This document shows, piece after piece, positions 3,827 through 22,684 of a DNA stretch of 23,020 nucleotides (positions within the stretch are counted from its first letter, which is position 1; each line of letters opens with the position of its first letter). The DNA comes from a virus, in IMG/VR virus record IMGVR_UViG_3300012356_000006, positions 1 to 23,020 of that record; one strand, given 5' to 3'. A program made the translations under genes and the position numbers. A model generated the notes under the pieces. The model made no database searches, was not told the DNA's origin, and saw nothing but the letters and a program-made list of their open reading frames with translations.

Positions 3827-6088
3827 CTATGATTGCTCCTTTGGCTTCTCCGTTGGGATTGTTTCGCATTCACAATTCGGGTGCGCAGGCTCTAGGATCG
3901 CGCCATTCGGGAAAGCTTCGCCTACTTTGCGCACCTCTCCATCATTGGCAAAGCACAGGTCGCAGGCATTCGATTGACTGAGCCATTTGAGGTATTCGAC
4001 GCCCTGATCGCGGTACTCCTGTAAGCGTTTGTCGAGGTTATCAGGCGACCAATCGACTTGTTGAGCGGATGTATCTGCGCTCTCCTTTGGTTGTGCTGTA
4101 CCCATCCTGGAGTATGTCCGATCATCTCCAATGGCAAGACAAAGCTGATCGAATACAAGCGGTACATTTGGCACGCTCTCTACTGGAAGAGGCGCATCAG
4201 CATCGATATAGGCTAATGTGATGTGAGGCGTAAAGTCAAAATCGTTCGCAACATTCACACCGGTATCACTAAGGCGTTGTACCAATGCAGCACGCCACGC
4301 GACAAGCCCTGGCACGTTTACGAGAGCGATAACAGGAGAGAGATTATCTGAACTATCCGAAGGTGTAAACCGTCCTAGCCCGCCTGTAGCTCCTTCAAGC
4401 GGCATAGACTTTGCAGCAAACGATGCAAGCTCTTGTTTGAGTTGGTCTATGTTGAGCGTGACCTCGTTCTTATCGCCCAGGAAAGCCAGGGTCACATGCA
4501 TATCTTGAGGAGGCTCACCATTGGGTAAAGCAAGCTGTGAAGCCGTATCCGGATCGAGCATAAACGCGATCATCATGCCGGTATGCTGTTCGACAATCTG
4601 CAATCTTTCCTTTGCTGGCTTCTGCTGTGGAGGTTGTTGTTGTGCTTGCGGTGGCTGTCCAGGAGCCTGTAGCGGAGCAGGTACGGGTTGAGGCGGCTCT
4701 TTGGCCTGTTCGGCTTTCGTTTGCGCTAAGTCAGCGTTGGCTTTTTGTTGTTGGAGCGTCACTGATGCTGTTTGCCTCTGTTCGTCTGCTAGTTCACCCA
4801 TTCTTTCGAGAGGAATAACTTCACGGCCAGAGACGATGATAGGTATTGAGCCGATCTCTTTGGGGTAAGGAGTCTTACCAGAGTCTTGCCGCTCTTCATC
4901 AGGCGTTGACAGCCCGCTAAAGATGCGTTTTTGCTGTACCTCGACTATTTGGGTATCACTCCTATAGTCAGCGTACTTCGTATTGACAATCCAGTCCGTG
5001 ATACCCAGCACGCCGACTACTATCCTTTGGTTGAATTCTTCAAGAATAAGCTGCTTGATGGGGTCAACGGTATTGAGACGAAGGGATTTATCCTGGTCTT
5101 CACCAGATCCGCCTCCGATGTTGCCACTCTCGATAATGCCAATCGCCGCAGGTGGGACACCATAGCCTGCTAAGATTTCCTCACGAGAGAACACCCGCCC
5201 ACCGTGGAAGTCTATATCAATTGGCCCTTTACCATACTCGTGAAGCTGCGCTCCTCCCCACATGACCGGCGGCACATGAGCATTCTGTTCGCCTGTGTAG
5301 TTCTCTTTGTAGAATTTGACGAACGTTCTAGCGTCGTCAACATCGCTCTCAGGCCCTAATTGTATCCATGCGCTGGGCCTAGTACCCTTCCTGAAAAACA
5401 TTTGAGACCAATCCACCATCGACTTATCAGCATAGGTTGGATTGACCAACTTCTCTATAGGCGAGAAGCTAATCATCTTGGCACGTTTGGAGGGAAGCCA
5501 CCATCTGATTATCTGCTCCGGCTTGAACTGTACCTTTTTATTGCTCTGAGTGAGCATCTGGGTATATCCAAGGATAGTGCCGTGTTCATCAAGCTGGTAG
5601 GTTATCGTTGGGCAGTCCAGGGAATGAAGTTGAGGAAACAAGCCACCAGGGACAATCTCTGCATAGCTTTCTCCATAGATTTCGAGATCGTCGGATGTCG
5701 CACGAAGGAAGCGCAATAATTTGACAGCAAGACAGAACTCTTTCAGGCGATCATGTGTGTCTTGCTGCCCCTTGCCGTGCTTTACCTCTTCGAGATGCCA
5801 TCCGCCAGACGTGAACCGCTTGCTAATCACATCTACGCAGGCACTAACCCAGGTATTGCCCTCGTACACACGATAGAGCGTATCTTTCCGCTCGTACTCG
5901 CTCAAGGGGCGCTGATCTCTCGCTTGCCCCATACCTTCGTTTTCATCCCATGCCAAGCTGAGCGATTGCGGCCCCTTGCTGCTAGACTTCGTAGCAGCTT
6001 GTGTAACTTTCTTTGTGGGCTTGGGCGCAGCTTCTACCAGGGGCTGGACTAATTGCAACGTACCCCGCGGGCGTCTTTTATTCGTCAT
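3827..6088 (-). CDS. Phage portal protein fused to a 2H phosphoesterase domain and a MuF-like tail
   Basis: 753 aa, well above the 400-500 aa of a simple portal. Residues 60-435 are a portal (ERKDTLYRVYEGNTWVSACV near the start; FSREEILAGYGVPPAAIG near 299-316, a typical portal segment), which would form the dodecameric DNA gate on the head. Residues 440-495 are a Gln/Pro-rich linker. Residues 503-665 are a 2H phosphoesterase/2'-5' RNA ligase-like domain with both HxT motifs, HVTLAF at 531 and HITLAY at 622. Residues 690-745 resemble the MuF/minor-head C-terminus: C709-x2-C712 and HPNCEC with H736, C739, C741. In the family, 2H domains cleave 2'-5' or cyclic phosphodiester bonds (for example the anti-CBASS enzyme Acb1). 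The substrate here is unknown. Two membrane mini-genes and TerL precede it. Confidence 0.85.
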   Translation of the reverse strand: MTNKRRPRGTLQLVQPLVEAAPKPTKKVTQAATKSSSKGPQSLSLAWDENEGMGQARDQRPLSEYERKDTLYRVYEGNTWVSACVDVISKRFTSGGWHLEEVKHGKGQQDTHDRLKEFCLAVKLLRFLRATSDDLEIYGESYAEIVPGGLFPQLHSLDCPTITYQLDEHGTILGYTQMLTQSNKKVQFKPEQIIRWWLPSKRAKMISFSPIEKLVNPTYADKSMVDWSQMFFRKGTRPSAWIQLGPESDVDDARTFVKFYKENYTGEQNAHVPPVMWGGAQLHEYGKGPIDIDFHGGRVFSREEILAGYGVPPAAIGIIESGNIGGGSGEDQDKSLRLNTVDPIKQLILEEFNQRIVVGVLGITDWIVNTKYADYRSDTQIVEVQQKRIFSGLSTPDEERQDSGKTPYPKEIGSIPIIVSGREVIPLERMGELADEQRQTASVTLQQQKANADLAQTKAEQAKEPPQPVPAPLQAPGQPPQAQQQPPQQKPAKERLQIVEQHTGMMIAFMLDPDTASQLALPNGEPPQDMHVTLAFLGDKNEVTLNIDQLKQELASFAAKSMPLEGATGGLGRFTPSDSSDNLSPVIALVNVPGLVAWRAALVQRLSDTGVNVANDFDFTPHITLAYIDADAPLPVESVPNVPLVFDQLCLAIGDDRTYSRMGTAQPKESADTSAQQVDWSPDNLDKRLQEYRDQGVEYLKWLSQSNACDLCFANDGEVRKVGEAFPNGAILEPAHPNCECETIPTEKPKEQS

Positions 6089-6382: not shown

Positions 6383-8770
6383 CTACTGAAAAATCGCGTA
6401 CCCGCTCGGTACATCCTCTTGCGGTATAGGTTGCTCTCGCAGGTCAGTATCTACGAGAATACCGCCAATCGCCTGTACTCCTGTCATCAATTCGGTAAAA
6501 GCCCACACATTCGCATCGCAATTATGAACAAGGACGCACTGAGCATAATACTCATGGGCGTCCTCTACTTGAAGATTATAAACAGATGCTTTACCCGCGT
6601 CGTATAACCCAAGCACACTTACGAGAGCAGGTACGTTGTGGTTTTGATTTTTTTGCATTAAAGGTTGATCCGCACACAATGCACTGCCTATCTTCGTAGT
6701 ACCTTCGTGTTTGCTCGTTCCATTTGGATATGCAAGAGCGAGAACAGAATCGCTCATCACCTTTTCTTGATCGAGTAAGGTACGCTTTTCCGCACTGAAT
6801 ACATACCTGTTGTATGGGATCTCGATCAGTCCAGCTATCTTTTCCATGCTGAACATGCCACTCATGACCCTCCTCTGAAGAGTGCCATTCCTTTGCAAGA
6901 GGACGTATTTGTTCAGCATGTTTCTGACGTTGCTCGTGAAACTCGGCTTTGTGGCGTTGGGCATGTTCCTTCTTGGTAAGACACTCCAAGTTGTCGATGG
7001 TATTATTAAGCGGGTTACCGTCGATGTGATGGATTTCACAGCCTGATGGAATGGGGCCATGATGCGCCTTCCATATCTCTCTATGGAGGGCGTCAACACC
7101 GACAGCACGGTTGCCTTTTTCATCGTAGGGCCAATAATAGACGCGCGAGTGACGTCTATGCGAGGTTGGGTATCGCGCAAAGGTGATACCATTGTAGATA
7201 ATTGTTTCTCGTTCCATGTCTCCATTATATCACCCCATACAAGAGAGTTCAACGGCACATAGCCCTTATTCTGAACAAAAACGGGATGATTGCCCGTTCC
7301 TGTCAATGTTCGACCATTCGACATAGACACAGAAATGACCTCTGTATTTGAATTTGTCATACCCGCCGCTATCACGCGTTTCCATCCTTGACGTGTCAGC
7401 ACTTTCATGCCAACACAAATAGTTTCTATTGGTTTTTCTCCCTGGTCAGTCATGACCAAAGTTCCTGCCACAAAGCATCTATCCGGTGATTTCTCACCAG
7501 GTACCCAATTGCATTGTTGATACTCGGTATCTGGGAATACTCCGCAGTGATGTATCAAAGCGCGCTGGTACAGGCTAGATATCGGCTCCGCTCTTAACTG
7601 CTTCCCTCGTGTAGCCCTGACTGCCTTGTACGGAACATGTCCCATCCCTTTCTGCTTGGCAATGTTGTAGATGATTGCACCAACCATCTCCCCACCGTTG
7701 TTAACCTCACCAATGATCGCGTCTGCCTCAAAGAGTGCGTATGCTGTCAATGCCGCCGTTGCCCATTCGTCAGGAGTGCCTACAAGGCTATAATCTCCCA
7801 ACATGTACCCATGCCCATCGACACCCAGGCCGGCTACCACTATGCCAGCCTCAGCAGGATTATCACTGGTAGCATCGCTGCTAGCAGGTGGGTCTACGGC
7901 TACTACAATGCGTTTAAGCTCAGGATGCTTGGTAACTCGATTGTCATCTATCCATTGACGTTTCCAGAGAGCACCATCGATATCATCGATGATGTGACCC
8001 TCTATCTCCTGATCACCGAGTCGAGTACCTGCATAGCGTCGGTTTATTTCAGCGATGAAACGCGGTGAGAGGTTCTCTTTGTTCTCAAGAGTTGACCGTC
8101 TGGTAACTACCGTTGTCGGATCGGCTACCAGGGCTTTCATCGCTTTGGTGTTGCGTGGCGTTGTGGTGACGATACACTGCGGATTGACACCAGGAGCAGG
8201 CTCTATACGAAGTCCAAAGGAAAGCTGATCCCACGTATCATCGTACTGCCATGCTGCCCGCTCATCTGCCCATGCGAACGAATGCTGAGGGCCTCTGAGC
8301 TGATCCGGTTCATCTGCACTATAGGTAGTGGCATATGAGCCATTAGGCCATACGAGCATGCGTAAGGACGGCTTGTATTCGGGTCTGAACCAGGGAGGCG
8401 ATATCGAGAGAATGCCGCTCCGACCTTTGACCATCACATCGCGCACATCTGCGACCGTCCGCCCTACCAACGCGATATGACAACCAGGATAGGCTTGTGC
8501 TTTCTCTATGACCCATTCCGCACCGGTGCGCGTCTTGCCCCAACCTCTACCTGAGAGAATGCACCATGTAGACCATTGCCCTTCTGGTGGGAGCTGGCTA
8601 TCACGTGCCCATGCTTTCCACTCGTATTTAAGCCTTAGTACCCATTCTTTGGGGGCTTTTTTAATGTACTCGTATTTTCGTTTCTTGCTCCATGTGGCAA
8701 AGAGACGAAAAAACCTGAGTTCTTGCTCAGGTGTGTAATTAGCCTTGGTTAGCTTGCTCTTTGTTTTCAT
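6383..8770 (-). CDS. terL: Terminase large subunit interrupted by an intein
   Basis: DNA-packaging motor. 795 aa precursor; removing the intein leaves 476 aa, normal for TerL. The ATPase has Walker A LSGRGWGKT (residues 72-80) and Walker B with catalytic Glu FAWADE (165-170). The RNase-H-like nuclease has VVAVDPPA (289-296, Asp293), IIGEVNNGGE (352-361) and SPDR at 428-431 rejoining CDANVWAF after splicing, the usual SPDRxDAxVWA motif. The intein occupies residues 432-750. The nuclease motif is split, so splicing is needed for headful cutting. The gene overlaps terS by 32 nt with no clear Shine-Dalgarno, so it is probably coupled to terS. Confidence 0.93.
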   Translation of the reverse strand: MKTKSKLTKANYTPEQELRFFRLFATWSKKRKYEYIKKAPKEWVLRLKYEWKAWARDSQLPPEGQWSTWCILSGRGWGKTRTGAEWVIEKAQAYPGCHIALVGRTVADVRDVMVKGRSGILSISPPWFRPEYKPSLRMLVWPNGSYATTYSADEPDQLRGPQHSFAWADERAAWQYDDTWDQLSFGLRIEPAPGVNPQCIVTTTPRNTKAMKALVADPTTVVTRRSTLENKENLSPRFIAEINRRYAGTRLGDQEIEGHIIDDIDGALWKRQWIDDNRVTKHPELKRIVVAVDPPASSDATSDNPAEAGIVVAGLGVDGHGYMLGDYSLVGTPDEWATAALTAYALFEADAIIGEVNNGGEMVGAIIYNIAKQKGMGHVPYKAVRATRGKQLRAEPISSLYQRALIHHCGVFPDTEYQQCNWVPGEKSPDRCFVAGTLVMTDQGEKPIETICVGMKVLTRQGWKRVIAAGMTNSNTEVISVSMSNGRTLTGTGNHPVFVQNKGYVPLNSLVWGDIMETWNEKQLSTMVSPLRDTQPRIDVTRASIIGPTMKKATVLSVLTPSIERYGRRIMAPFHQAVKSITSTVTRLIIPSTTWSVLPRRNMPNATKPSFTSNVRNMLNKYVLLQRNGTLQRRVMSGMFSMEKIAGLIEIPYNRYVFSAEKRTLLDQEKVMSDSVLALAYPNGTSKHEGTTKIGSALCADQPLMQKNQNHNVPALVSVLGLYDAGKASVYNLQVEDAHEYYAQCVLVHNCDANVWAFTELMTGVQAIGGILVDTDLREQPIPQEDVPSGYAIFQ
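6591..7217 (-). CDS. HNH homing endonuclease nested out of frame inside the TerL intein
   Basis: 208 aa on the same strand as terL but in a different frame, entirely inside the intein. Residues 42-90 hold the HNH fold: HREIWKAHHGPIPSGCEIHHIDG, with His63-His64 and Asp66, then NPLNNTIDNLECL and H85/H89. The C-terminal third has two zinc-ribbon pairs: C139-x2-C142 with C158-x3-C162, and C179-x2-C182 with C197-x3-C201. These ribbons are common DNA-recognition add-ons in HNH homing enzymes. ATG 7217 lies 7 nt downstream of TATAAT with only GGAG 2 nt away, suggesting a leaderless message. The stop falls just before block F, so the gene replaces the usual endonuclease insert exactly. By family role it would cut intein-less terL alleles. 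Confidence 0.88.
   Translation of the reverse strand: MERETIIYNGITFARYPTSHRRHSRVYYWPYDEKGNRAVGVDALHREIWKAHHGPIPSGCEIHHIDGNPLNNTIDNLECLTKKEHAQRHKAEFHEQRQKHAEQIRPLAKEWHSSEEGHEWHVQHGKDSWTDRDPIQQVCIQCGKAYLTRSRKGDERFCSRSCISKWNEQTRRYYEDRQCIVCGSTFNAKKSKPQRTCSRKCAWVIRRG
7224..7252 (-). promoter_or_regulatory. Promoter-like sequence inside the intein, upstream of the nested HNH gene
   Basis: TTGAAC (7252-7247), a 17-nt spacer and a perfect TATAAT (7229-7224). The predicted start, 7 nt downstream, is the A of the HNH start codon, so the transcript would be leaderless. The same bases encode in-frame intein residues near 507-516. Confidence 0.55.
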
Positions 8771-10527: not shown

Positions 10528-10755
10528 CTAGGCTTCGTCTCTGTACTCTGCTGGCAAATAATGCCCTCTTGCACCGAGCGACTTACCCAGCCACATTTTC
10601 GCCTCTTCCAACTTCGTGATAGTCAAGGCAACCTCACGACCGCCATCCCCACGGTTAAGCTCATCAGCTAATACCTGAGCATCCTTGATACATCGGTCAA
10701 TAGACACGCGTAACGCCTTTGTCCAAGGCATTATGTCCAGCTTGTTGTTATCCAT
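10528..10755 (-). CDS. Acb2/Tad1-like protein (candidate cyclic-nucleotide sponge), 75 aa
   Basis: ATG 10755 follows AGGAG by 4 nt. Residues 12-60 form two helices ending in GREVALTITKLEEAKMWLG, which matches the conserved hairpin I associate with the Acb2/Tad1 family (RExSLAxTKLEEAxMW). Those phage proteins form hexamers that bind cyclic oligonucleotide or cADPR-type signals and block CBASS or Thoeris defence. Length (75 aa) is slightly under the usual 80-100. The C-terminal GHYLPAEYRDEA tail is also common in phage relatives. It is the first gene after a strong terminator, so it heads the late block. Identity rests on motif recall, and ligand specificity is unknown. Confidence 0.6.
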   Translation of the reverse strand: MDNNKLDIMPWTKALRVSIDRCIKDAQVLADELNRGDGGREVALTITKLEEAKMWLGKSLGARGHYLPAEYRDEA

Positions 10756-10773
10756 ATTGCTCCTAGTACCAAA

Positions 10774-10826
10774 CAAAAAGGCGTTCCCAGCCATCCACAC
10801 ACAAAATGTGAATAACTGAGAACGCC
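10774..10826 (-). terminator. Rho-independent terminator between middle and late genes
   Basis: On the minus strand GGCGTTCTCAG (10826-10816) pairs with CTGGGAACGCC (10790-10780) as an 11-bp stem with one G-U pair. The loop contains a smaller CACA/TGTG hairpin. A TTTTT tract follows (10779-10775). Confidence 0.7.
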
Positions 10827-19112: not shown

Positions 19113-19411
19113 GCGACCTCCTCTAAATTCGTTCGTTCCCACTCCTCCATTGCTGCCAACATAGCGCAGATGCGATCATCGTCCCCTAAAAGTGATGTCG
19201 TCCCATACATCTCTATGCCCTCGGCTAGGGCATATTCTCCAAAGGACAGAGCAGGCCATCCGTACCGCTTGCCCCATTCCATCAGGTACCGCCTCTCAGA
19301 GCAATCCTCACACCAGAGGAAGCCCAATGAGTCAGGTTTGACCTCGGTACTGGTACACTCCAAAGCTGAGCACAGATCAGGCAAAAGTATCTCTATCGCG
19401 TCATACAGCAT
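19109..19411 (-). CDS. Hypothetical protein, 100 aa, with CEDC
   Basis: ATG 19411 is 9 nt after GGAGG and overlaps the helicase stop by 11 nt. An N-terminal helix with two Cys (LLPDLCSALEC), a CEDCSERRYLMEWG segment and a C-terminal acidic helix (RICAMLAAMEEWERT) can be seen. The four cysteines could bind zinc. It sits right after DnaB and may be a helicase accessory factor; that is inference from order. Confidence 0.55.
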   Translation of the reverse strand: MLYDAIEILLPDLCSALECTSTEVKPDSLGFLWCEDCSERRYLMEWGKRYGWPALSFGEYALAEGIEMYGTTSLLGDDDRICAMLAAMEEWERTNLEEVA

Positions 19412-20738
19412 CGAAACTCACCTCCACATCTTGGAATTTGGTCAGGCGTGGCTTGAATTGTAGCGTAGCCGTACCTCTGGCCCCATTGCGATGCTTGCGA
19501 ACAATGATATTGATGTGGTAGGGCGAGTTTTGCTCTCGCTTTTCACGCTCTAATGGTTCGCAGTGCAGGAACATCACTACATCGCTATCTTTCTCAATAC
19601 TGCTACTTTCCCCCAAGTGTGAGAGTTGCGGTACGTCGGCTCTTTCAGACTCTCGGTTGAGTTGAGCCAGGGCCAGCACGGGAACTTTTAGCTCACGCGC
19701 TAATCTCTTCAATCCCTTACTGAGCATAGCTACCTGCTCAGGCCGTGTTTGATTTTTGTTCTTGCTCTCAAGATCAATCATCTGAAGATAATCCACAACG
19801 ATGAGATCAAGCTTCTTTTTCATATGCACCCGGCGGGCTTTTGCTCGTATGCCAGAGAGCGTATAGGTGCGATCATCTATCTTCATATCGCACTTGCTCA
19901 GCACTTTGGCTTTATTCTTGATATGCTGGTGCTCTACATCGTTCAAATCACCATCTCGCAAGAATGACTGATCAATAGGAGTTTCCATCGAGATGAGACG
20001 CTGGGCTAGCTCGTTCTCATCCATCTCCAGGCTAAAGAAGAGAGCCTGTCGGGCTTTCTGCACAACATTAAGAGCCACATTAAGAGCAAGAGCCGTCTTG
20101 CCATCGCTAGGCCGTGCAGCAAGGATGTACAAGCCCGATGGTTGTAGTCCTCCCAACATCGCATCAAGATCGCGGAAGCCCGTCGGCACACCACGCGCCT
20201 TATTGTTGGAGAAGTCATCCCGGCGTTGGTTGATCGTCTCCATATAGCGATCCATCACGTCTGAGAGGGACGCTACAGGCTTGCTATCTTGCTCTAAGGC
20301 AATATCAGCTATAAGCTGCTCAGCTTGCTCTAGGGCGTTCTCATCTTGATGGAGAGCCATTGCAGCAATAGATTGAGCCGCCGAATAGAGACGGCGTTGT
20401 ATGCTCTTGGCTCTCACAATCTCAGCGAACTCTTCAACGCTCTTGAGAGCATCAATGCTGAGAGGCAGATCATCCAAGCAATCACGCCCCAGGGTCTGCT
20501 CAACATCTCTGAGTTTGCCTGTTCGCTCTAGCTCCTTCTTGACCGAGAAGACGCTAGAGCCTTTTTCCTGATGGTAGAGATGCACAATTGCACGGTATAT
20601 CTCGCTATGAGCGTCCATATGGAAGTGCTCAGGCCGTAAGGTATCTACCACACGCGGTATAGCTCGTGCATTTGCCAGCAGACAGGACAATACCCCAGCT
20701 TCAGCTTCGATATCGGCAGGTATACGTACTTCGATCAT
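19401..20738 (-). CDS. dnaB: DnaB-family replicative DNA helicase
   Basis: 445 aa, standard for the family. The N-terminal primase-binding domain spans residues 1-145 (EAEAGVLSCLLAN; IPRVVDTLRPEHFHMDAHSE). The RecA-like motor has GVPTGFRDLDAMLGGLQPSG (183-202), Walker A ARPSDGKT (208-215; the usual Met is Asp), Walker B LIVVDYLQM (312-320), VLALAQLNRESE (354-365) and KHRNGARGT with the arginine finger region (415-423). It unwinds phage DNA as a hexamer and should be loaded at the iteron origin by the initiator encoded 2 nt upstream. GGAGG 10 nt before ATG 20738 lies inside the initiator gene. Confidence 0.93.
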   Translation of the reverse strand: MIEVRIPADIEAEAGVLSCLLANARAIPRVVDTLRPEHFHMDAHSEIYRAIVHLYHQEKGSSVFSVKKELERTGKLRDVEQTLGRDCLDDLPLSIDALKSVEEFAEIVRAKSIQRRLYSAAQSIAAMALHQDENALEQAEQLIADIALEQDSKPVASLSDVMDRYMETINQRRDDFSNNKARGVPTGFRDLDAMLGGLQPSGLYILAARPSDGKTALALNVALNVVQKARQALFFSLEMDENELAQRLISMETPIDQSFLRDGDLNDVEHQHIKNKAKVLSKCDMKIDDRTYTLSGIRAKARRVHMKKKLDLIVVDYLQMIDLESKNKNQTRPEQVAMLSKGLKRLARELKVPVLALAQLNRESERADVPQLSHLGESSSIEKDSDVVMFLHCEPLEREKREQNSPYHINIIVRKHRNGARGTATLQFKPRLTKFQDVEVSFDAV

Positions 20739-20740
20739 GG

Positions 20741-21841
20741 CTAGTATGCCTCCGCTCTTAGCTCTTCACGGGTTTTCGGACGTGGGGGCATGGATAAGGG
20801 TTTAGGTGTTGCTGATATTTCTTGTTGTACGTCTAGAGCCATGATACGACTTTCGTACTCGCTGCAAATAGTATGTGGTTTCATGTGCTTTCGCCAGAAA
20901 TGATCACCATTACGATCTGACTCATTCCACATGTCATTCATAACCTGGAGCAATTTCTTAGGGGTTGGATTTTGCGAGAGAAGCCCCTCTATGGCAGTAT
21001 CGCCTTTTTTCGTGTGTTGGAATGTGGCTGTTTCATCCCCCATGAGCTTGCGCTTAAACTCGTCCATTGCGTCATACACCTGAGCGATACGTTTTTGGGT
21101 CACTTCGTCACGCTCTGCCTTGCGTGTAACTTTCTTTACTTTGGGGGCTTCATTACCAGACTCAGAAGGATTCCCACCAGCACTATTGCTATCGGGAATG
21201 CTAGGAAGGGTAACAGACTGTCCATTGGTCTCCTTTGGCGTTTCTTCAATGCTTTGCTGTTTGTCAACTATTTTTTCTTGAGAGGGAGTGAGCGATGCGT
21301 CTATATATTCTTCAACTGTTCTTTCTTCAGTAATGTTAGTGCTTCCAGTGTTATTACTTCTGTACGGGATTTGTGAACATTCAGGTTCACGTGGTGAACA
21401 TTCTGAGGGAGTATCGTTCACGTGGTGAACATTTTCGTTCACATCCTGAACATTCTCAGAAGTTTGTTCATCTGGTGAACATTCTTGTTCACTGTGTGAA
21501 CGTTTTTTTGTAGGGTACTCTTTGGCATTTGCACCCCAAATATCTACGATAGTGATATGCCAGACTTCTTTTCCTCCGGTGCTTCTCTTCTTCTTTTCAG
21601 CATGGATCAGCCCAACTTTATGCAGCACTGGGACAGACTCAGAGAGTAAGCCAGTAGAAATACCTGTTTCCTCTGAGAGAGCACGCAAGGTACGGTAGCA
21701 GGTACCAGTATCACCACATAAATCTTTGAGGCATACATAGAGCCATTTCTGATGAGGTGTGACATCTTTATAGTCGGTGCGAACAATACGAGGCACCACA
21801 GCATGAAAACCATAATCAATGTTGGGATCACGTTTAGTCAT
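20741..21841 (-). CDS. Replication initiator with winged-helix domain; gene carries the origin iterons
   Basis: 366 aa from ATG 21841 (AGAGGA 9 nt upstream; ATG 21850 abuts that site). Residues 20-85 form a winged helix of the replication-initiator/RepA-N or DnaD type (PRIVRTDYKDVTPHQKWLYV; LSEETGISTGLLSESVPVL, recognition helix). Residues 100-250 are a hydrophilic linker with repeated EC/ENV units (SECSPREPECSQ), translated from an iteron array. Residues 260-340 are helical (RIAQVYDAMDEFKRKLMG; FWRKHMKPHTICSE), probably the helicase-loading part. The protein should bind the iterons inside its own gene and recruit DnaB, as lambda O does. Confidence 0.72.
   Translation of the reverse strand: MTKRDPNIDYGFHAVVPRIVRTDYKDVTPHQKWLYVCLKDLCGDTGTCYRTLRALSEETGISTGLLSESVPVLHKVGLIHAEKKKRSTGGKEVWHITIVDIWGANAKEYPTKKRSHSEQECSPDEQTSENVQDVNENVHHVNDTPSECSPREPECSQIPYRSNNTGSTNITEERTVEEYIDASLTPSQEKIVDKQQSIEETPKETNGQSVTLPSIPDSNSAGGNPSESGNEAPKVKKVTRKAERDEVTQKRIAQVYDAMDEFKRKLMGDETATFQHTKKGDTAIEGLLSQNPTPKKLLQVMNDMWNESDRNGDHFWRKHMKPHTICSEYESRIMALDVQQEISATPKPLSMPPRPKTREELRAEAY
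21373..21504. repeat. Iteron array, probable phage replication origin inside the initiator gene
   Basis: GTGAACATTC-type repeats start at 21373, 21394, 21425, 21446 (CTGAAC variant), 21475 and 21496. The members of each pair are exactly 21 bp apart, two helical turns. Inverted GTTCAC sites lie 12 bp into each pair (21385, 21437, 21487), with extra sites at 21416 and 21465 (GTTCAT). The A/T-rich stretch at about 21230-21365 could be the unwinding region. Confidence 0.75.
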
Positions 21842-21886
21842 GAAATTCATTCCTCTTCTATCACCCTGCTACATTGCCCTCCATAC

Positions 21887-21915
21887 TTGATTTTTTTGTA
21901 CAGATGGGATACAAT
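21887..21915 (+). promoter_or_regulatory. Promoter of the antisense small RNA
   Basis: TTGATT (21887-21892), 17-nt spacer, TACAAT (21910-21915; 5 of 6). An inverted repeat GTAAC-aagg-GTTAC (21916-21929) covers the predicted start point and could be an operator. Confidence 0.65.
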
Positions 21916-21921
21916 GTAACA

Positions 21922-22009
21922 AGGGTTACTTGACTGGTACTGCTCACTGTCTGGAAAACGAAGAGCAGTACCAGGAGACGGCGGTAGAGAAATCTACCGC
22001 TATTTTTTT
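21922..22009 (+). ncRNA. Small RNA of about 88 nt, antisense to the initiator leader
   Basis: Begins about 7 nt after a good -10. Hairpin 1 is a perfect 11-bp stem, TGGTACTGCTC (21935-21945) with GAGCAGTACCA (21963-21973), with a 17-nt loop. Hairpin 2 is the terminator. The RNA is complementary to the gap between the 209-aa gene and the initiator gene, so any message reading from the right into the initiator contains its target. This is the layout of plasmid copy-control RNAs. The role is inferred; the promoter, two stems and terminator are seen directly. Confidence 0.7.
21981..22009 (+). terminator. Rho-independent terminator of the small RNA
   Basis: GCGGTAGA (21981-21988), GAAA tetraloop, TCTACCGC (21993-22000), then TA and seven T (22003-22009). 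It overlaps the stop of the opposite-strand 209-aa gene by 2 bases. Confidence 0.85.
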
Positions 22010-22637
22010 AGTGGTGTCTACTGCCGTTCACAGCTTCAGCGACGGCCTCCATCTTGACATTTAGGTCAGATAGATGTTTGGCCTGATGTTCTCTCTCTTG
22101 CTCCTCTGCTTCAGGGTCAAGTTGGAACTCTCCGCGTACATACTCTTCATTGAGCTTTTTCAATACCTTGCGCTCGTCATAACGCAATCTGCCTACATCG
22201 GCTCTTTCCTTCTGAGACAATGACGGAGGTGCAACGAGTGTAAGGCACTGTTCATCCCATAAGTGAGGAGGGACATGGGCAACCTGTTCACGTAGTCGCA
22301 TCTCTAAGCGTCCAAAATGTGTCTCTGGCTTAGGATTTTGTACCTTTGGAGTAGGCTTAACCTCTTGCTCGACTTCAATTGGTGCTACTGAAGAAGGAGC
22401 TGGTGAAATAGGTGTTATTTTGACGTTTGGCCTGTTCATCCAATAGCCCACGTTCGCTATTCGGGCTACGATGGCGGACATAGCTTGCAGATCAGTCAAG
22501 TCAACGGTTTCATCCTCCTGAATGGCTTGCATCACTATCCGTCGGAAGATTTCAGCATCGACTTGTACCAGCAATGTTCCTTCGTAGTAGCCAGTTTCGT
22601 GATTCAGTGATAGGTTGGGTGTCTTTTCGTGTTGCAT
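22008..22637 (-). CDS. Proline-rich hypothetical protein, 209 aa
   Basis: ATG 22637 follows GAGGAA by 5 nt; a longer frame from 22676 has no site. Residues 15-80 look like a folded strand-helix domain (GYYEGTLLVQVDAEIFRRIV; DLTDLQAMSAIVARIANVGYW). Residues 85-120 are a Pro-rich linker. The C-terminal part is helical and charged (RYDERKVLKKLNEEYVRGEF). It sits between a methyltransferase and the initiator, so a replication-accessory role is possible. Its stop overlaps the opposite-strand terminator. Function unknown. Confidence 0.6.
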   Translation of the reverse strand: MQHEKTPNLSLNHETGYYEGTLLVQVDAEIFRRIVMQAIQEDETVDLTDLQAMSAIVARIANVGYWMNRPNVKITPISPAPSSVAPIEVEQEVKPTPKVQNPKPETHFGRLEMRLREQVAHVPPHLWDEQCLTLVAPPSLSQKERADVGRLRYDERKVLKKLNEEYVRGEFQLDPEAEEQEREHQAKHLSDLNVKMEAVAEAVNGSRHH

Positions 22638-22684
22638 GATTGTTCCTCGCAAGTGTGCTGGCGGGGTTGCCAGCACACGATAAG

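Follow-up and report, generated by a model that had tools for sequence, protein, structure and literature searches.

In a soil phage represented by an IMG/VR virus record, the 157-nt spacer between a 209-aa gene and the replication initiator gene carries on its + strand a compact cassette that is best read, from its sequence, as the gene of a short antisense RNA facing the initiator leader. The cassette covers 123 bp (21887-22009) of the 23,020 bases that were analysed, referred to here as the window, and its parts, their order and their position resemble those of the OOP RNA gene of phage lambda. An RNA is probably made from the cassette, to judge by these signals, and it is an even call whether that RNA would act on the replication operon in an OOP-like way.

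Organization of the replication region

All proteins with a family match in the window are read leftward, among them the portal protein, the terminase, DnaB, a weakly matched initiator of the lambda-O type and others, and no protein family match was obtained for nine + strand ORFs picked from the ORF list, the longest included, so that none of these nine offers a recognised gene for a + strand terminator to serve. The leftward replication operon begins with the 209-aa gene, whose product gave no family match and was left without an assigned function by the family search, and continues through the initiator, which contains the iterons, to DnaB (Table 1). The initiator likely starts at the ATG at 21841, behind an AGAGGA ribosome-binding site.

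Table 1. Features of the replication operon and of the antisense cassette in its first spacer.
Feature	Position	Strand	Description
DnaB-like replicative helicase	19401-20738	-	Operon gene after the initiator
Replication initiator, lambda-O type	20741-21850	-	Weak PHROG matches, best E 1.2e-5
Iterons (n=5)	21385-21501		Putative origin, within the initiator gene; GTTCA-N5-TGAAC
Imperfect inverted repeat	21864-21924		Leader hairpin in the initiator message; in DNA, spans the antisense promoter
Predicted sigma-70-type promoter	21887-21915	+	TTGATT (21887-21892), 17-nt spacer, TACAAT (21910-21915); 9/12
Inverted repeat	21916-21929	+	GTAAC-AAGG-GTTAC, over the predicted start site
Predicted antisense RNA, 88 nt	21922-22009	+	5' end deduced from the position of the -10 box
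Perfect 12-bp hairpin, 17-nt loop	21934-21974	+	CTGGTACTGCTC (21934-21945) / GAGCAGTACCAG (21963-21974) (100%)
Intrinsic terminator	21980-22009	+	9-bp stem GGCGGTAGA-GAAA-TCTACCGCT (21980-22001), GAAA loop, then ATTTTTTT
209-aa upstream gene	22008-22637	-	Stop codon within the T tract of the cassette

The promoter and the terminator of the cassette were each listed by two separate scans. An earlier note on this DNA had described a promoter, a possible operator repeat, a GNRA-capped terminator and a T tract within 123 bp, giving an RNA of about 88 nt; these elements can be read directly in the sequence and both lengths agree, the GNRA cap being the GAAA loop, and the hairpin that it counted as 11 bp is present as a perfect 12-bp stem. 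The strength of the promoter is only moderate. The repeat over the predicted start site occurs once in the window and is possibly an operator, or just the 5' end of the RNA; operator sites shared with other positions were rejected, as TACATTG likewise occurs once and CAATGTA three times. The predicted transcript, which the earlier note also described as complementary to the message ahead of the initiator, lies almost wholly in the spacer. It overlaps the 209-aa gene by about 2 nt, its terminator reaching into the stop codon of that gene. The T tract follows the terminator stem on the + side only, and the terminator is therefore directed against the operon. A coding role for the 88-nt RNA was rejected, with frame 1 stopped and the other two frames stop-free without a plausible ORF.

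Several genes elsewhere in the window are of separate interest. The terminase large subunit gene (6383-8770, - strand) contains an intein, recognised by matches to Hint and intein-splicing domains. Within the part that encodes the intein, a different reading frame of that strand holds an ORF for an HNH endonuclease (6591-7217, - strand; HNH_3, E 1.5e-20). The portal protein (3827-6088, - strand) is fused to a 2H phosphoesterase/RNA-ligase-like domain similar to proteins from phages of Arthrobacter and Gordonia. A small protein encoded at 10528-10800 (- strand) has an Acb2/Tad1 hairpin-domain match (E 3.3e-6), a family known for anti-CBASS activity, and its gene immediately follows a long, T-tailed hairpin (10821-10785). 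A lone response-regulator receiver domain is encoded in this phage at 18107-18493 (- strand; E 8.2e-23).

Rarity and structure of the cassette

Promoter-like sites taken alone show no clear enrichment in the window, with five found and 3.3 expected from shuffles. The combination of promoter and terminator occurs only once in the window, counting both strands, and when the 170 nt from 21851 to 22020 were dinucleotide-shuffled 3000 times, with both strands scanned, such a cassette appeared once. Because loose cassettes do arise in shuffles of the whole window (6 of 30 in one run and 17 of 150 in another), it is the position and quality of the cassette that count: a strict version, with a terminator stem of at least 8 and 7/8 T, appeared in 0 of 150 whole-window shuffles, as did a loose version with a perfect 10-bp hairpin inside (0/150). 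The predicted 88-nt RNA folds with -38.7 kcal/mol (z -6.27), a value that none of 200 shuffles equalled, and positions 21921-22010 on the + strand rank third for structure after G+C correction among 4586 stretches of 90 nt taken from both strands in 10-nt steps. The sequence feature is real, and its origin by chance is unlikely.

The same hairpins could instead serve the leftward message, either in its processing by RNase or by shielding the 5' end of the initiator-DnaB mRNA, with the + strand promoter and the T tract coincidental and no antisense RNA produced. The message strand does fold as strongly (z -7.78 for 21835-22012), the cassette is without conservation, and the next spacer, which precedes the 209-aa gene, also contains a perfect 10-bp hairpin; the order and spacing of the elements and the T tract, however, suit a terminator on the + strand only, and the shuffle counts for the strict cassette (0/150) and for the two-strand gap scan (1 match in 3000) weigh against coincidence. 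We consider this explanation somewhat unlikely. The hairpin of the next spacer (22653-22678) has no T tract, and with this second example in the operon, spacer hairpins may have another use or be an operon theme.

Conservation among related loci

Conservation is the main weakness of the antisense reading, and the cassette is not conserved. Single-protein searches of viral contigs returned no close relative of the initiator or of the 209-aa protein (208 residues), and for DnaB no close relative and one distant one; searches with the initiator and DnaB in genomes, with the DNA in phages and plasmids, and with the initiator protein in phages returned none. By tblastn, neither the initiator nor the 209-aa protein had a match among the relatives of the portal protein (L013-L018); two of these loci (L013 and L016) have weak methyltransferase matches.

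Relatives of the initiator are few, with five loci in the last viral scan; L102, one of the five, and the locus L021 are a single contig. Iterons of the GTTCA-N5-TGAAC type inside the initiator gene are common to four otherwise diverged loci (the one described here, L021, L101 and L104), and the genes adjacent to the initiator differ between loci. The nearest relative of the initiator, at L101, matches at 67% over its N-terminal part, and the iterons of L101 have the same location. The initiator gene there and the one upstream share 4 nt, which leaves no spacer that could hold the cassette, and the gene after the L101 initiator resembles, by eye, a DnaC-type loader. L021 has five iterons of the same type and a 101-nt gap, L104 has three, and an antisense terminator was found at neither. 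In a relaxed scan of six relatives, antisense promoter-like sites (at least 8/12) turned up in every one; L101, L103 and L105 (the gene start of L105 being guessed) also had terminator-like stems on the antisense strand, and in none was a promoter followed by a terminator within 150 nt.

We also surveyed DnaB genes more widely, placing 81 loci, of which 63 offered a candidate initiator together with 300 nt upstream and 18 were dropped; a candidate was the nearest + strand ORF that was 180 aa or longer and ended at most 900 nt before DnaB, its identity as an initiator being assumed. The cassette was found at none of these 63 candidate genes, against a background of 2 in 629 gene starts. Pattern searches gave matches that were rejected: the hairpin pattern matched ten viral contigs, all with the same unrelated element, which has a loop of 21 nt and lacks a terminator, and the single terminator-pattern match lay in a different setting. 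Either the cassette is confined to this lineage, or close kin are missing from the collections searched.

Proposed action on the operon message

If the antisense gene is expressed, its moderate promoter would give a cis-antisense RNA of about 88 nt, stopped by its own terminator. Its sequence is the perfect complement of the operon message across the spacer, and it would mark the message for RNase III cleavage there. The antisense promoter would also fire against operon transcription entering the initiator and the iterons, and the predicted outcome is reduced initiator and reduced transcription of the origin. How much of the target the initiator message carries would depend on its start: from a - strand promoter-like site at 22020-21991 (9/12) the message would begin inside the gap and include most of the target, and from another at 21922-21895 (8/12) it would exclude it.

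The earlier note had compared the layout to antisense copy control in plasmids, in which an RNA pairs with the leader of the initiator message to prevent its translation or to end its transcription early. Examples are RNAI of ColE2, CopA of R1 and RNAI of pT181. The likeness is one of arrangement: the predicted stem-loop antisense RNA here faces the leader of an initiator that bears iterons. RNA-based prophage replication systems do occur in mycobacteriophages (PMC7157519); these extrachromosomal prophage origins resemble the present locus in combining a phage replication region with a noncoding RNA, and differ in that they have no RepA-type protein and use an initiator RNA (PMC7157519), whereas an initiator and iterons are present here.

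Predicted folding and consensus scans show no plasmid-type switch at this locus. In the predicted foldings, the ribosome-binding site of the initiator has a mean pairing of 0.32 in the free message and 0.29 with the RNA bound, the start region has 0.57 and 0.62, respectively, and the leader hairpin, which lies in a message-strand segment with a fold of z -4.76 (21842-21924), is nearly unchanged with or without the RNA. The RNA/message duplex ends about 65 nt before the ribosome-binding site, consensus-based scans found no - strand terminator in the initiator leader, and the predicted RNA gave no Rfam match at gathering scores, only sub-threshold ones. Since binding of the RNA leaves the predicted ribosome-binding-site pairing the same, a translation switch at the initiator was rejected, and this result together with the lack of a leader terminator in the scans argues against a plasmid-style translation or attenuation switch. 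With such a switch disfavoured, we infer that cleavage of the long duplex or polymerase collision is left over; the more likely modes of action are cutting of the operon message by RNase III, promoter interference or both, and plasmid-type control is quite unlikely. The antisense layout proposed earlier stands, the plasmid likeness is the weaker one, lambda OOP being the closer match, and a copy-control role is unproven.

Action in trans on host or other phage messages, with the location of the gene incidental, would suit a self-contained promoter-RNA-terminator unit, and trans-acting phage RNAs are known (PMC12197685, a 2025 review), but we hold it to be very improbable here, as the whole RNA, its 5' tail and its loop paired with 40 phage gene-start regions no better than shuffles did and trans targets in the phage were rejected.

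Comparison with lambda OOP RNA

Lambda served as our yardstick and was scanned for a promoter and a terminator in the same way. In the OOP region the scan found a 9/12 promoter and a 12-pair stem with a T tract, on the antisense strand upstream of O. With its ends, which we take to be 38599-38675, OOP RNA folds as a hairpin plus terminator. The two loci share, at the level of sequence signals, a short self-terminating RNA with a hairpin followed by a terminator (77 nt in lambda and 88 nt predicted here), an antisense promoter scoring 9/12 in each directly upstream of a lambda-O-type initiator gene, and iterons inside that gene (four annotated in lambda and five here). The distance from the RNA start to the iterons is about 360 bp in lambda and about 420 bp here. 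The placing of the cassette next to the iteron origin in the earlier note is loose, because the iterons lie inside the initiator gene at this distance from the predicted start. It had also considered such a plasmid-like layout notable in a phage; with lambda OOP, found in the same neighbourhood by the same scan, as the closest match, the cassette is not unprecedented. Searches of a paper library on OOP and on antisense control in general showed no report of this locus.

Lambda OOP is located between cII and O and, with the assumed ends, covers the last 55 nt of cII, whereas nearly all of the RNA predicted here falls in the spacer ahead of the initiator, and no family match was obtained for the 209-aa gene on its other side. 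O is followed by gene P in lambda and the initiator by DnaB here, and no kinship of this phage to lambda was detected. Because a cII-type target is absent, we do not claim membership of an OOP family and use the term OOP-like only.

The role of pO and OOP in lambda replication is itself debated, with antisense action on cII, promoter interference and replicative inhibition variously invoked (PMC3985674, PMC3349717). The review cited above presents OOP as an antisense RNA to cII that brings about RNase III-dependent degradation of cII mRNA (PMC12197685). Activity of pO is described as damping pR transcription, and loss of pO as impairing replication, in a study that also reports OOP to be without effect on O-P mRNA (PMC3985674); another describes oop and iterons together as leading to replicative inhibition (PMC3349717). 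The position of lambda OOP mostly on cII, and the reported lack of an effect on O-P mRNA, count against the OOP-like reading.

That a phage with no detected kinship to lambda arrived independently at an antisense promoter and a self-terminating RNA facing an iteron-in-initiator origin is possible, though doubtful. If true, control of such origins by opposed promoters would be a general solution and no peculiarity of lambda. A distant phage with the same layout, in which the RNA falls outside coding genes, would separate the antisense-to-cII role from the role at the origin, if the RNA is made.
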